A DNA stretch of 64,000 bases from Bradyrhizobium zhanjiangense (lineage in GTDB: Bacteria > Pseudomonadota > Alphaproteobacteria > Rhizobiales > Xanthobacteraceae), in contig NZ_CP022221.1 in the NCBI RefSeq assembly GCF_004114935.1, positions 186,001 through 250,000 on the forward strand, in the 5' to 3' direction. Position 1 is the first letter of the stretch; each line of letters begins with the position of its first letter. This document shows positions 7,517-59,202 of this stretch, piece by piece. Below the pieces are notes generated by a model. The model made no database searches and was not told the DNA's origin. It was given only the letters and a program-made list of their open reading frames with translations. The translations under genes were made by a program, and so were the position numbers.

Positions 7517-7601
7517 CGTCATGGCCGGCCTTGTCCCGGCCATCCACGTCTTGCCCGCGGCACGCAGAACGTGGATGCCCGGGACAAGCCCGGGCATGAC
7601 G
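7517..7601. repeat. Dispersed palindromic repeat, family C
   Basis: Inverted repeat whose halves read cgtcatggccggccttgtcc and gggacaagcccgggcatgac, joined by catccacgt / acgtggatg. Other copies lie at 12117-12201 and 59113-59202, with a half copy at 47892-47924. Confidence 0.85.
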
Positions 7602-10473: not shown

Positions 10474-10963
10474 AGGCGTCTTCCCCTGCCGGTGCATGAA
10501 GCCGCTTACGGCGGCAACTTGTCTGGCGGACGCCCACCGGGCTGGCGTCCCGCCTTGGCGGCGAGCATGATCGCGTTCACGCGCGGAGGCAAATGCAATT
10601 TGAAAGCAGTCGAAAAGCTAGCTCTGCACTTGCTCGTTGTGCGCCGCGCCAACGGCGCGACGCAGCCACTGGACACAACAGCACGTGTATCTGACATGCA
10701 TGCCATCGCGTTCAGGCAGTTTCTTCCAGGTAACTTGGCGGACTAGACTGTGAGGAAGTGAGCTGAAGTCACAGCGGCGCCACGAACGTCCCTTCTCCCC
10801 TTGCGGGAGAAGCGCGAAGCGCCGGATGAGGGGTTCTCTCCACTCGCGAAACCATTCGTGAGGATAGAGACCCCTCACCCGGCTTCGCTTCGCGAAGCCA
10901 CCCTCTCCCGCAAGGGGAGAGGGTGCAGCGACGCCCGCGGCGAGAAACAGAAGGGTAGGAGAC
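10474..10963. other. Divergent intergenic region, mostly repeat
   Basis: 490 bases between the divergent hydroxylase operon and hydrolase gene. The first ~300 bases show no coding sequence I can support and should hold the hydroxylase promoter. The rest is a family F repeat ending 40 bases before the hydrolase start. Confidence 0.6.
10789..10923. repeat. Dispersed palindromic repeat, family F (complete copy)
   Basis: Outer arms cttctccccttgcgggaga and ctctcccgcaaggggagagg. Inner arms gatgaggggttctct and agacccctcaccc. A short unique loop joins them. It shares this layout with copies at 14655, 19241, 26041, 28196, 35258 and 49679. Confidence 0.85.
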
Positions 10964-12116: not shown

Positions 12117-12201
12117 CGTCATGGCCGGGCTTGTCCCGGCCATCCACGTTCTTCCGCGCTGAGACAAGACGTGGATGCCCGGGACAAGCCCGGGCATGAC
12201 G
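12117..12201. repeat. Dispersed palindromic repeat, family C
   Basis: Same halves as at 7517-7601, including catccacgtt / acgtggatgc and ggacaagcccgggcatgacg. It lies just upstream of the dienelactone hydrolase gene. Confidence 0.85.
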
Positions 12202-19240: not shown

Positions 19241-19387
19241 CACCTCTCCCCCGCTTGCGGGGAGAGGTCGGAATGCGCGCGCAGCGCGGATTCCGGGTGA
19301 GGGGGGACACTCGGCGTGTCCAACTCTCACCTCCCCTGTGGAGACTCCCCCTCACCCCAACCCTCTCTCCGCAAGCGGGGCGAGGGA
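19241..19387. repeat. Dispersed palindromic repeat, family F, between dnaA and dnaN
   Basis: Outer arms cacctctcccccgcttgcgg and ccgcaagcggggcgaggga, inner gggtgaggggg / ccccctcacccc. It makes up much of the 389-base dnaA-dnaN gap; the remaining ~230 bases before dnaN probably hold its own promoter. Confidence 0.85.
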
Positions 19388-19615: not shown

Positions 19616-20734
19616 ATGAAGGTTACGGTCGAACGCGCGCAACTGCTGAAGTCGCTGGGCCATGTCCATCGCGTGGTCGAGCGCCGCAACACGATTCCGA
19701 TCCTCGGCAACGTGCTGGTCCGCGCCGAGAACGCGAAATTGTCGCTGAAGGCGACCGACCTCGACCTCGAGGTCACGGAGACGCTGCCCGCGGAAACCGC
19801 GACCGCGGGCTCCACCACCGTGCCGGCGCACATGTTCTACGACATCGTCCGCAAGCTGCCGGACGGCTCGCAGATCGTGCTCGAGGCCGACGGCGACCGC
19901 GCGGTGCTGGCGATCCGCGCAGGCCGCTCGCGCTTCACGCTGCAGACCCTGCCGGAGAATGATTTCCCGGATCTGGCCGCCGGCGACATGTCGCACTCGT
20001 TCTCGCTCGCCGCCAAGGACGTCAAGCGGCTGATCGACCGCACCCAGTTCGCGATCTCGACCGAGGAGACGCGCTATTACCTCAACGGCATCTATCTGCA
20101 CGCCGCCGGCACCGCCAAGGCGGCGACCCTGCGCGGCGTCGCCACCGACGGCCACCGCCTCGCCCAGCTCGACCTGGTCCAGCCCAAGGGCGCCGAGGGC
20201 ATGCCCGGCGTCATCGTGCCGCGCAAGACTGTCGGCGAGGTGCAGCGCCTGATCGAGGACACCGAGGCCGAGATGACGATCGAGCTGTCGCAGGCCAAGA
20301 TCCGCTTCACCATCGGCAATGTGGTGCTGACCTCGAAGCTGATCGACGGCACTTTCCCCGACTACGGCCGCGTCATCCCGCAAGGCAACGACAAGGAGCT
20401 CGTCGTCGACAAGAAGGATTTTGAGAACGCGGTCGACCGTGTCTCCACCATCTCCAGCGAGCGCGGGCGGGCGGTGAAACTGTCGCTATCGGCGGGCAAG
20501 CTGGTGCTGTCGGTGACCAATCCGGATTCCGGCAGCGCGACCGAAGAGCTGGAGGTCGAATACGCCTCCGACGCCCTCGATATCGGCTTCAACTCCCGCT
20601 ACCTGCTCGACATCGCCGCCCAGATCGAAGGCGACGTCGCAACCTTGAGGCTGGCCGACCCCGGCTCGCCCACCCTGGTGCAAGACCGCGACGACAAGAG
20701 CGCACTGTACGTGCTGATGCCGATGCGGGTGTGA
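19616..20734 (+). CDS. dnaN: DNA polymerase III beta subunit (sliding clamp)
   Basis: A 372-residue clamp of three similar domains. It starts MKVTVERAQLLKSLGHVHRV, with RRNTIPILGNVLV early and TDLDLEV in domain 1, and ends with SALYVLMPMRV, the usual C-terminal strand. It forms the ring that tethers Pol III and other partners to DNA. The ATG at 19616 matches family N-termini; the longer in-frame start lies in the repeat. Third gene of the rpsT-dnaA-dnaN-recF-gyrB order. Confidence 0.97.
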   Translation: MKVTVERAQLLKSLGHVHRVVERRNTIPILGNVLVRAENAKLSLKATDLDLEVTETLPAETATAGSTTVPAHMFYDIVRKLPDGSQIVLEADGDRAVLAIRAGRSRFTLQTLPENDFPDLAAGDMSHSFSLAAKDVKRLIDRTQFAISTEETRYYLNGIYLHAAGTAKAATLRGVATDGHRLAQLDLVQPKGAEGMPGVIVPRKTVGEVQRLIEDTEAEMTIELSQAKIRFTIGNVVLTSKLIDGTFPDYGRVIPQGNDKELVVDKKDFENAVDRVSTISSERGRAVKLSLSAGKLVLSVTNPDSGSATEELEVEYASDALDIGFNSRYLLDIAAQIEGDVATLRLADPGSPTLVQDRDDKSALYVLMPMRV

Positions 20735-20796: not shown

Positions 20797-20860
20797 CCCC
20801 CTCCCCTTGTGGGAGAGGGCAGCTCCGCTGGAGGAGACACAGTCGGTCGGGTGAGGGGTT
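20797..20860. repeat. Family F repeat, left half flanking the DUF559 gene
   Basis: Stem-loop ccctccccttgtgggagagg followed by cgggtgaggggtt. The right half at 21231-21289 is the inverted counterpart. Together they form one family F element with a gene in place of the usual short loop. Confidence 0.85.
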
Positions 20861-20861
20861 A

Positions 20862-21227
20862 GTGCCGCAAGATCCGTCCCATCGGCCAGTCCCCAAACGT
20901 CTCCGCCAATTTGCGAAGAATATGCGGCACGAACCGACGGACGCGGAAGCGGCCATGTGGCGCTTGCTCAGGGATCGTCGGCTCTCCAGCTACAAGTTTC
21001 GCCGGCAAGTTCCATTCAAGAACTACGTTCTCGATTTCGTCTGTTTCGACAAGCGCCTCGTGATCGAGATTGACGGAAGTCAGCATGCGGGATCGCAGCG
21101 TGATGCAGTTCGCGAAGCCGCACTTTTCGCAGAAGGTTTCTCGGTCGCGCGCTATTGGAACAACGACGTTTTGCAGCAATCCGTGTCCGTATTGGAGGAT
21201 ATTCTTGCAAAGCTTGCCGGGCGGTAA
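20862..21227 (+). CDS. DUF559 (Vsr/restriction-endonuclease-like fold) protein
   Basis: A 121-residue protein of the DUF559 family, related to very-short-patch-repair and other PD-(D/E)xK nucleases. The core runs RHEPTDAEAAMWRLLR, YKFRRQVPF, YVLDFVCFDKRLVIEIDGSQH, read here as D-x-V-C then E-I-D-G, and the C-terminal ARYWNNDVL. The GTG at 20862 lies right after the repeat inner arm, with gaggggtta as possible ribosome-binding site; an ATG at 20921 is possible. The gene sits exactly between inverted halves of a family F repeat. Enzymatic activity is inferred from the fold only. Confidence 0.85.
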   Translation: MPQDPSHRPVPKRLRQFAKNMRHEPTDAEAAMWRLLRDRRLSSYKFRRQVPFKNYVLDFVCFDKRLVIEIDGSQHAGSQRDAVREAALFAEGFSVARYWNNDVLQQSVSVLEDILAKLAGR

Positions 21228-21230
21228 GAT

Positions 21231-21289
21231 ACCCCTCACCCGTCGCCTCACTGCGTGAGGCGCCACCCTCCCCCACAAGGGGGGAGGGA
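21231..21289. repeat. Family F repeat, right half flanking the DUF559 gene
   Basis: acccctcaccc (inverse of the left inner arm), a small hairpin cgcctcactgcgtgaggcg, then ccctcccccacaagggggga (inverse of the left outer stem-loop). Confidence 0.85.
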
Positions 21290-21317: not shown

Positions 21318-22454
21318 ATGACCCCCTCCCGCATTCATCGTCTGACGCTGACGCAGTTTCGCAATTATCGGGCGGCGGGGCTCGAGACGGCGGCTGACAT
21401 GGTGGCGCTGGTCGGGCCGAATGGGGCGGGCAAGACCAATTGCATCGAGGCGATCTCGTTCCTGTCGCCGGGGCGGGGCTTGCGGCGCGCGACGCTGGAA
21501 GACGTCGCCGACAACCAGGGCGACGGCTCCTGGGCGGTGTCGGCGCAGGTCGAGGGCGCACTGGGGCTGGCGACGCTCGGCACCGGCATCGATGCGCCGC
21601 GCACTGACGCCGCCGTCAGCCGGCGCTGCCGCATCGACCGCGAGCCGGTCAATTCCGCCGCCGCCTTCGGCGACCACATCCGCATGGTGTGGCTGACGCC
21701 GGCGATGGACGGGCTGTTCATGGGCGCGGCCTCGGAGCGGCGGCGCTTCTTCGACCGCCTGGTGCTCGCCATCGACAGCGACCATTCCAGCCGGATCAAC
21801 GCACTGGAACGCTCGCTTCGCTCGCGCAACCGCCTGCTCGAGACGCGCAATTACGACGATCATTGGTGTGACGCGATCGAGCGCGAGACCGCCGAGCTTG
21901 CGGTCGCGGTCGCCGCAACGCGCGGCCAGACCGCGGCGCGGCTGACCGGCATGCTCAATACGCGCGCGCAAGCCTCGGCGTTTCCGTCGGCACAAATCGC
22001 GCTCGACGGCTGGATGGAGAACGCGCTGCTTCAGGAGACCGCGACGTCGGTCGAGGACCGCTACCGCCAGATCCTGCGCGACAACCGTCCGCGCGATGCC
22101 ATCGCCGGCCGCACCACCGACGGCCCGCATCTCACCGACCTCCAGGTCGTCTATGCGCCCAAGAGCATGCCGGCGCGCGATGCCTCCACCGGCGAGCAGA
22201 AGGCGCTCTTGATCGGCTTGGTGCTGGCGCATGCGACGCTGGTGGCCGAAATGACCGGCATCGTGCCGCTGCTGCTGCTCGACGAGGTGGTCGCCCATCT
22301 CGATCCGAACCGGCGCGCGGCGCTGTTCGAGGAGCTGAAGAAGCTCGGCGCGCAAGTGTGGTTGACCGGCGCGGACCCCGCTGCCTTCGCCGAGATCGGC
22401 GCGGGAGGCGAGATCTTTGACGTCGAGAGCGGACGCGTCTCCGCCCGAAGGTAG
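21318..22454 (+). CDS. recF: DNA replication/repair protein RecF
   Basis: A 378-residue ABC-ATPase-like protein. Its N-terminal motif is RIHRLTLTQFRNYRAAGLE, Walker A is LVGPNGAGKTNCIEA, the ABC signature region is STGEQKALLIGLVLAH and Walker B is PLLLLDEVVAHLD. RecF loads RecA at gaps with RecO and RecR and helps restart forks. Length is typical. It follows dnaN, with the DUF559-repeat unit inserted between them. Confidence 0.96.
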   Translation: MTPSRIHRLTLTQFRNYRAAGLETAADMVALVGPNGAGKTNCIEAISFLSPGRGLRRATLEDVADNQGDGSWAVSAQVEGALGLATLGTGIDAPRTDAAVSRRCRIDREPVNSAAAFGDHIRMVWLTPAMDGLFMGAASERRRFFDRLVLAIDSDHSSRINALERSLRSRNRLLETRNYDDHWCDAIERETAELAVAVAATRGQTAARLTGMLNTRAQASAFPSAQIALDGWMENALLQETATSVEDRYRQILRDNRPRDAIAGRTTDGPHLTDLQVVYAPKSMPARDASTGEQKALLIGLVLAHATLVAEMTGIVPLLLLDEVVAHLDPNRRAALFEELKKLGAQVWLTGADPAAFAEIGAGGEIFDVESGRVSARR

Positions 22455-28195: not shown

Positions 28196-28389
28196 CTTCT
28201 GCCCTTGTGGGAGAAGGTGGCATAGGCGGCCTTCGGCCGCCGTTCTTAAGAACGCCGAAGCAAAGCTTCGGCTATGGCGCCGGATGAGGGGTTCTATCCA
28301 CTTGCAAGATCGCTCGTGAGGATAGAGACCCCTCACCCGTCTCGCCGCTACGCGGCGGCGAGCCACCCTCTCCCGCAAGGGGAGAGGGT
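28196..28389. repeat. Dispersed palindromic repeat, family F (long copy)
   Basis: Outer arms ttctgcccttgtgggagaag and ctctcccgcaaggggagagg; inner gatgaggggttctat / agacccctcaccc. The left arm carries an extra small palindrome (ggcggccttcggccgcc). Confidence 0.8.
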
Positions 28390-35080: not shown

Positions 35081-35398
35081 GGGTTGTCTCCGGCTTGGGG
35101 GCGTGAGCCCAAGACGAAGCAGGAGGCGTGGGATATGTGCTCGCCGGATCTGGAAAATGGCGTGGCTGGATTTGGCCGGGACTGATCGATTCTGAAATAA
35201 CGCAACAGATCCAACAGCTTGAAAATTGGGCTGGTCTGTCGCGCCGGGGACGGTGGACCCCCTCGCCCCGCTTGCGGGGAGAGTGAGGGGAGTCTCCGCA
35301 GGGACGGTGACAGACGGGCTCGCGGAAGCTCCCCCTCACCCGAAATTTGCTCCGCAAATTCCGGCCTCTCCCCGCAGGCGGGAGAGGCGAAGAGCCCA
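35081..35398. other. Intergenic region with family F repeat
   Basis: About 320 bases between two minus-strand genes. The part next to the hydrolase start (35081-35250) should hold its promoter; I see no gene. The rest is the repeat at 35258-35388. Confidence 0.6.
35258..35388. repeat. Dispersed palindromic repeat, family F
   Basis: Outer arms ccctcgccccgcttgcgggg and ctccccgcaggcgggagagg; inner gtgaggggagtct / agctccccctcaccc. It lies just past the stop of the AraC-type gene. Confidence 0.8.
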
Positions 35399-47891: not shown

Positions 47892-47924
47892 GCGTGGATG
47901 GCCGGGACAAGCCCGGCCATGACG
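47892..47924. repeat. Half copy of family C repeat
   Basis: gcgtggatggccgggacaag followed by cccggccatgacg: only the right half of family C, adjacent to the family G copy and 46 bases before tsaB. Confidence 0.7.
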
Positions 47925-49678: not shown

Positions 49679-49826
49679 TTCACCTCTCCCCGACGGGGAG
49701 AGGTCGATTTGCTCCTGGCGATGCGTAGCATCGTCCAGCGCAAATCGGGTGAGGGGGCTCAGGTCCCACGAGAGTCCACAACCCCTCACCCGGCGCTTCG
49801 CGCCCACCTCTCCCTATGGGAGAGGT
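49679..49826. repeat. Dispersed palindromic repeat, family F
   Basis: Outer arms cacctctccccgacggggag and cacctctccctatgggagag; inner gggtgagggggctc / aacccctcaccc. It separates fur from the HAD hydrolase gene. Confidence 0.85.
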
Positions 49827-59112: not shown

Positions 59113-59202
59113 CGTCATGCCCGGGCGTGTCCCGGGCATCCACGGACTTCCTTTCTTCGGTCGCGAAGAACGTGGATGGCCGGGACAAGCCTGGCCATGA
59201 CG
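59113..59202. repeat. Dispersed palindromic repeat, family C
   Basis: Halves cgtcatgcccgggcgtgtcc and gggacaagcctggccatgac, joined by catccacgg / cgtggatgg. It fills the gap between convergent trmB and the DUF2336 gene. Confidence 0.85.

Follow-up and report, generated by a model that had tools for sequence, protein, structure and literature searches.

The DUF559 nuclease gene between dnaN and recF of Bradyrhizobium zhanjiangense and the two inverted repeat arms that enclose it form one element. This conclusion, already put forward in the original prediction, is well supported by the anatomy of the arms, by flank controls, by the co-occurrence of repeat and gene across genomes, and by arms that track the lineage of the enzyme. 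Our preferred reading, to which we give slightly better than even credence, is that gene and arms make up a selfish mobile element that spreads in a homing-like manner, with gene-less inverted pairs as its short forms. Hereafter, the window is the whole stretch of DNA analysed (64,000 nucleotides).

Anatomy of the element

Pfam matches place the element between dnaN (ending at 20734) and recF (starting at 21318). The nuclease gene starts 2 bases past the left inner arm and its stop codon ends 3 bases ahead of the right one, confirming the coordinates (20797-21289) and arm distances reported originally. The inner arms (20848-20859 and 21231-21242; 12 nt) are inverted and complementary at 12 of 12 positions (100%), and the inverted outer arms (20797-20826 and 21259-21288; 30 nt) at 80%. 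On both sides of the gene, an outer hairpin is combined with the inner tail GGGTGAGGGG, the right side being inverted, and the spacer between stem and tail measures 29 nt on the left and 24 nt on the right (Table 1). When folded as DNA, the left arm (20797-20860) has its outer hairpin paired, yet folds no better than shuffles (z -0.05), and the right arm (21231-21289) folds far more stably than shuffles (z -4.4 and -4.8 for the two strands).

Table 1. Coordinates of the element and of gene-less pairs in the window.
Feature	Position	Strand	Evidence
Left outer hairpin, CCCCCTCCCC-TTGT-GGGAGAGGG	20797..20819	+	inverted repeat
Left tail GGGTGAGGGG, putative third strand, 29 nt from stem	20849..20858	+	inverted repeat
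DUF559 nuclease gene, 121 aa, GTG start	20862..21227	+	PF04480 E 1e-36; alignment; fold match 3hrl, I-Bth0305I
Right tail, CCCCTCACCC on +	21232..21241	-	inverted repeat
Hairpin-forming spacer, right tail to stem	21242..21265	-	DNA fold
Right outer hairpin, CCCTCCCCC-acaa-GGGGGGAGGG	21266..21288	-	inverted repeat, DNA fold
Gene-less inverted pair, tail-loop-tail core	10824..10880	.	pattern, G000:196824-196880
Gene-less inverted pair, core	19295..19357	.	pattern, G000:205295-205357
Gene-less inverted pair, core; presence varies in relatives read	28282..28338	.	pattern, G000:214282-214338
Gene-less pair, degenerate left tail GAGTGAGGGG, left stem to right tail	35258..35341	.	
Gene-less inverted pair, core	49747..49791	.	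pattern, G000:235747-235791

Inverted arms around DUF559 genes

The named relatives of its proteins place the genome in Bradyrhizobium. It has four DUF559 matches, three of which have repeat arms of different classes. With 250-bp flanks, the window element (L002; inverted-flank score 15.5) and a second locus (L001) reach 15, and the other two score 11.0 (L003) and 9.5 (L004); with 350-bp flanks the arms of L003 become visible (score 55.5), and L004 has no arms. The second DUF559 element (L001, G000:C1:338180-338503) has its own repeat class and lies between genes read as pheS and pheT, and its reading frame extends into the right arm.

DUF559 is present in 194 of 195 genomes of the genus. Inverted flanks (score of at least 15) were found in all 25 unclipped loci among the 30 best of the genus, in 15 of the 28 best-scoring loci of the phylum, and in 14 of 20 further phylum loci hand-picked from the list; the genus and phylum loci being the best-scoring ones, armless low-scoring lineages such as the L004 type are under-represented in these fractions. 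A separate set of named genomes, ranked by protein similarity (the best 80 of at least 573 loci), gave scores of at least 15 at 58 of 77 loci and of at least 20 at 54 of 77. That DUF559 genes of relatives carry such arms was thus borne out in over half of the loci in every set. Clipped loci were left out (5 of 30 in the genus, 1 of 29 in the phylum, 3 of 80 in the named set, and 3 of 30 and 2 of 30 for the GIY-YIG and RidA genes discussed below); with 350-bp flanks, the clipped genus loci scored 16.5 (L006), 14 (L027 and L033), 9.5 (L020) and 8 (L005). Scores below 15 occurred at 19 of 77 named loci, 13 of 28 phylum loci and 6 of 20 further phylum loci, and several low-scoring phylum loci carry one-sided arrays of the same repeat (L042, L044, L049, L051 and L228). 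Armed DUF559 loci also occur in records titled Desulfobacterales and in one metagenome bin each with the titles Chloroflexi (L288), Planctomycetota (L281) and Gastranaerophilales (L279). At three loci (L047, L297 and L257), the inverted flanks of the DUF559 gene match closely over a great length (about 100-150 nt), which may point to another architecture.

One might suppose that a small gene was simply caught between two intergenic repeat copies, the genome being rich in repeats (48 gene-less pairs). Random placement of a 330-bp block in the window, however, reached a score of 15 in only 0.7% of 2913 trials, displaced placements at the named loci did so in 5 of 500 cases (0 of 500 at a score of 20), and RidA control genes of the same genus had inverted flanks in 1 of 28 cases. 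Chance pairing and intergenic bias are ruled out by these controls at the level of the family, and such an origin is hardly credible for the window element.

The repeat core is a triplex motif

In its core, the repeat has the letters of the G/C-rich intrastrand triplex motif described in the available text of Holder 2015 (PMC4666352). According to that text, its authors at no time came across remnants of transposases or integrases near the triplex-motif sites of E. coli, and the words DUF559, endonuclease and nuclease are absent from the main text of PMC4666352. In each arm the purine strand of the hairpin is followed by a mirror-image tail, so that one strand by itself could in principle adopt a three-stranded structure.

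We examined the covariation of stem and tail in 145 purine-rich, tail-bearing hairpins (of 367, both strands counted) from 56 DUF559 loci, with tails picked by composition only (G-rich) and T allowed opposite A. The tail was a perfect mirror of the purine strand of its stem in 74% of cases, compared with 6% when tails were swapped between different stems. The class mean mirror score over 31 stem sequences was 0.912, versus 0.788 on average and 0.836 at most in 2000 permutations, these hairpins being non-independent in that many come from related loci. Pairs of stem and tail include GGGGGAAGG with GGATGGGGG, GGGAGGGG with GGGGAGGG, and AAGAGGGG with GGGGAGAT. Mirroring of this kind would be needless for a plain hairpin and would be needed for a three-stranded fold. 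The ITxF search rule, as worded in the available text of PMC4666352, takes triplex-motif loops of 1-6 nt, so that the window copy, with its spacers of 24-29 nt, falls outside the published rule.

In E. coli MG1655, triplex motif TM-ECO number 9 (1351204-1351239) lies 167 bp from the DUF559 gene ycjD (1351407-1351760). With 23 motifs spread over 4.64 Mb, the number expected to fall within 400 bp of the gene is about 0.006. The flanks of ycjD (L064) hold no inverted arm pair, the motif standing on one side only (score 9). A 39-nt piece resembling the 3' end of ycjD is found between ycjD and motif number 9 (within MG1655 1351204-1351760).

Family, fold and selection of the nuclease

The reading frame matches PF04480 (DUF559) with 125.5 bits, against a curated cut-off of 20.6. 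A profile search returned only PF04480 and a sub-cut-off match to PF18741, with no HUH tyrosine transposase. Residues D58, E69, D71, G72 and H75 are invariant in an alignment of 21 diverse DUF559 members. An AlphaFold2 model (mean pLDDT 80.8), compared with the PDB by Foldseek, matched best the Neisseria DUF559 protein 3hrl (TM 0.70/0.89, E 7e-9), followed by 3r3p, the catalytic domain of the homing endonuclease I-Bth0305I (TM 0.62/0.75, E 7e-5, 18% identity), which we take to be of the EDxHD type; these two were the only matches with E of 0.001 or less. Ranks 3-10 were occupied by mitochondrial ribosome proteins of Toxoplasma and Tetrahymena. The Vsr structures 1cw0 and 1vsr came at ranks 11 and 14 (E 0.017 and 0.029), and DUF559 relatives are named 'very-short-patch-repair endonuclease' in the sources. 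Among the DUF559 copies of the dnaN-recF gap, the median dN/dS was 0.093 (26 copies; 159 of 325 pairs, those with dS of 0.05-1.5; a motif filter left out L081, which is full length by tblastn), indicating that the protein is under purifying selection while it is present.

Gene-less pairs as probable short forms

All four gene-less copies named in the original prediction (near 10789, 28196, 35258 and 49679) are present in the window, together with one more near 19295. Across the genome, we counted 48 gene-less inverted pairs (pattern with loops of 15-45 nt) and 72 stem-plus-tail matches. A TCTCCGC-like motif, a pattern chosen after viewing the letters, stands at 47 of the 96 inner boundaries of the gene-less pairs, with 0.8 expected after shuffling. 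The motif is also found just inside the tails of L001, and the window element has different letters there. The earlier claim that the gene-less copies are miniature derivatives therefore stands in part: the shared arms and the boundary motif in common with L001 speak for it, and the letters of the window element itself do not.

At the 28.2-kb site (30 loci read, 97 genomes matched), relatives have the pair, lack it, carry a pair of another class, or keep a bare hairpin (L369), and no target duplication (read by eye) or clean empty site was seen in these 30 loci. At five loci of relatives without the triplex repeat (L363, L365, L368, L374 and L377), the site is taken up by a different intergenic repeat (CGGACGCAGCGCAGCACG...GAGCCGGGGCCCAT or similar letters).

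This variable presence, together with an enzyme gene between inverted repeats and a repeat number tied to the gene as in RAYT/REPIN systems, would also fit a nuclease that takes part in transposition in trans. It would nick arms in the single-stranded DNA of forks and leave the joining of ends to host enzymes, the element would move as a unit, and the short forms would be true miniature transposons. The profile search found no transposase match, however, no target duplication or clean insertion was seen, and rejoining of DNA is not known for nucleases of the DUF559-type fold. We consider such a transposition route unlikely.

Turnover of the dnaN-recF gap in relatives

A RecF search matched 116 of 117 genomes of the genus, of which 90 loci from 89 genomes were read (2 without dnaN), and the gap set comprises 88 dnaN-recF gaps from 87 genomes (L099 and L100 belong to one genome). 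DUF559 was found in 32 gaps, and a GIY-YIG gene between inverted CGTC-type repeats in 24 (e.g., L066, L076 and L134; mostly deleted in L103). Gene-free CGTC-type repeats or their remnants occupy 20 gaps, and the rest hold a GTAG-type repeat (7), a triplex-repeat piece (3) or none of these (2). Triplex-repeat pieces stand on both sides of the gene in 31 of the 32 DUF559-bearing gaps, an outcome that does not refute the original prediction. Of the DUF559-free gaps, none of the 56 has two tails and 6 have at least one piece (e.g., L102, L145, L146, L147 and L150). A clean empty arm pair, which simple homing predicts, was not found among these 56, nor did reading by eye reveal a target-site duplication or a clean empty site.

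The state of the gap changes at least 41 times on the dnaN tree, a minimum obtained on one short and poorly resolved tree (600 columns; 12 of 84 branches starred). Well-supported sister strains differ in gap content (L087/L092 and L131/L137). As the whole gap often differs, strain-to-strain recombination may move gap alleles, and insertion and loss cannot be separated in these data from whole-gap recombination between strains. Two derivatives were noticed among the gaps. In L149 (G012:C104:293560-294900), the ends of DUF559 and the repeat arms are kept and a DUF7660 gene replaces the middle, a cargo-bearing derivative. In L103 (G002:C1:1650-3020), a GIY-YIG element has suffered an internal deletion that left about 15 codons and both arms; it is a short form caught in the making.

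A gene that comes and goes at one gap is difficult to reconcile with a plain host function, in which DUF559 would be a Vsr-like mismatch-repair nuclease and the arms terminators or neutral neighbours. Such a function draws on the Vsr structures in the fold search and on VsrA of Caulobacter, a DUF559 protein for which there are cell data and a proposed role in mismatch repair. In the available text of PMC12907096, VsrA is SOS-induced and drives damage responses in the absence of a cytosine methyltransferase. A plain host function leaves the stem-tail covariation unexplained, RidA controls lack such flanks, and the neighbours are dnaN and recF with no methyltransferase, VsrA being likewise unlinked according to the same text. 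As the whole explanation it is highly unlikely, although a host role in repair, as proposed for VsrA, may coexist with the element that we prefer.

Co-occurrence of repeat and gene, and arms by lineage

We searched 398 Pseudomonadota genomes for the pattern GGGAGAGGGN{2,30}GGGTGAGGG, which was present in 110 of them with 3000 matches in total, versus 5 matches for the reversed pattern. Strong DUF559 (E of 1e-10 or less, a definition that also counts the armless L004 type, e.g., in G571 and G284) occurred in 70 of the 83 genomes with at least 3 repeats, as opposed to 40 of the 315 others (odds ratio 37). Within the 16 families holding both states, at least 3 repeats were found in 41 of 69 genomes with DUF559 and in 6 of 130 without (Mantel-Haenszel odds ratio 33; 0 of 5000 permutations reach the observed rank statistic), this test including f20, f24 and f68, two of which go against the link. 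Strong DUF559 without the patterned repeat was seen in 27 genomes, some of which lack the exact pattern because their repeat has other letters (G205/G578, loci L035/L224). Conversely, 13 genomes hold at least 5 repeats without strong DUF559, four of them with 70-143 copies. PF18741 was considered as a substitute nuclease in these 13 genomes and rejected, as it turned up in just 2 of the 13 and there exclusively as part of open frames 1863 and 2404 aa long.

Protein distance and arm distance were correlated within the genus (Mantel r 0.54, 0 of 2000 permutations; 25 loci) and over 107 loci (r 0.40, 0 of 500 permutations), the Mantel set including L019, whose domain was mis-read. The arm distance to the nearest protein neighbour was 0.09, compared with 0.32 over all pairs. 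Sequence-specific recognition would predict such a correlation, to which shared descent at fixed sites also contributes.

These data bear on the reading that the repeats spread by other means and are a mere landing site for DUF559, a homing parasite without effect on repeat number. The 13 repeat-rich genomes without strong DUF559 are in its favour, as are G390 and G226, which keep 70 and 42 copies, and GIY-YIG genes that sit similarly in other repeats. Yet within families repeat number goes with the gene (41 of 69 against 6 of 130), and arms differ by DUF559 lineage within one genus. We regard a passive landing site as decidedly unlikely.

A parallel in GIY-YIG genes

Inverted flanks with a score of at least 15 were present at 9 of 27 unclipped GIY-YIG loci, taken from the best-scoring ones in the phylum. 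GTCAT-type hairpins are present at L165, L166, L169, L170 and L172, and other inverted repeats at L155, L158, L176 and L179. In the window, CGTC-type palindromic repeats (GTCATGGCCGGGCTTG...) occur at 7518-7600, 12118-12200, 47895-47923 and 59114-59142, the type that encloses GIY-YIG genes in relatives. CGTC-tagged REPs are palindromic like the window repeat and apparently have no dedicated transposase, according to the available text of Di Nocera 2013 (PMC3733652); the repeats of relatives that enclose GIY-YIG genes were called CGTC-type by their GTCAT... ends alone. PMC6083498, in its available part, counts both GIY-YIG and EDxHD among the homing families. Within the open-licence literature in PMC, no link between GIY-YIG and repetitive extragenic palindromic repeats was found.

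Proposed mechanism and comparison with known systems

Spread by arm cutting and repair is probably the mechanism that best fits the fold, the position of the gene, the covariation and the GIY-YIG parallel. Under this mechanism, the DUF559 nuclease most likely recognises its own arm class, possibly acting in trans, and would cut or nick an arm copy without the gene. The gene would then be copied in as the break is repaired on the template of the copy that bears it, the arms providing the homology, and repair between gene-less copies would spread and homogenise the short forms. Such a scheme would amount to a homing endonuclease with a dispersed repeat as its target. Against homing of one element stand the 13 repeat-rich genomes without strong DUF559 and the lack of a clean empty site or target-site duplication among the sites read. 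So do the 27 genomes with strong DUF559 but no patterned repeat, the loci scoring below 15, the one-sided motif at ycjD, the long spacer of the window copy and the mismatch-repair role proposed for VsrA. More tentatively, and with a probability that we place somewhat short of even, there may be a class of transposase-free 'homing repeats', that is, hairpin or triplex repeats spread by nuclease-induced repair, each with a small nuclease gene inside one copy. DUF559 would drive the triplex (GGGTGAGGG) repeats and GIY-YIG the CGTC-type, with the three-stranded fold of the arm as the recognition signal.

In RAYT/REPIN systems (REPtrons), an enzyme gene lies between inverted repeats and repeat number is tied to that gene. 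The window element resembles them in these respects, as well as in having gene-less inverted pairs elsewhere and an arm sequence that follows the enzyme lineage. It differs in that RAYTs combine an HUH tyrosine transposase with a GTAG tag, whereas here a DUF559 nuclease is combined with the tail GGGTGAGGGG, the mirror of its stem (GGGTGAGGG type). The comparison with RAYT transposases in the original prediction consequently holds as an analogy and fails for the enzyme, which is no HUH transposase, and for the tail, which is not GTAG.

The triplex motif (TM, or PIT) of Holder 2015 shares with the window arms the blocks CCCTCTCCC, GGGAGAGGG and GGGTGAGGG, the inverted pairs, and, through TM-ECO number 9, a position near ycjD; it differs in that no mobility gene is reported in the available text of PMC4666352 and in that the window arms have a longer spacer from the stem to the third block. 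I-Bth0305I shares the catalytic fold of the window protein, whereas the window gene is free-standing in a repeat and not in an intron or intein. The Vsr very-short-patch repair endonuclease gives a weaker fold match, although relatives carry its name, and the window gene is flanked by repeats and has no cytosine methyltransferase among its adjacent genes. Within the open-licence literature in PMC, we found no link between DUF559 and palindromic, REP or inverted repeats (the available text of PMC12907096 makes none) and, judged by title, no relevant link between repetitive extragenic palindromic repeats and homing endonucleases.

Implications

Beyond the original prediction, the analysis identifies the repeat core as a triplex motif already in print, and a second nuclease family with a comparable arrangement in a different repeat. 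A triplex repeat family without a known enzyme gains a likely partner nuclease, which is small, conserved and present in E. coli K-12 as ycjD, so that a single deletion strain would suffice to test how triplex repeats spread. Should the parallel with GIY-YIG hold, two repeat families that lack a known enzyme would each gain one, and the known kinds of mobile DNA would be extended by a transposase-free way of spreading repeats.
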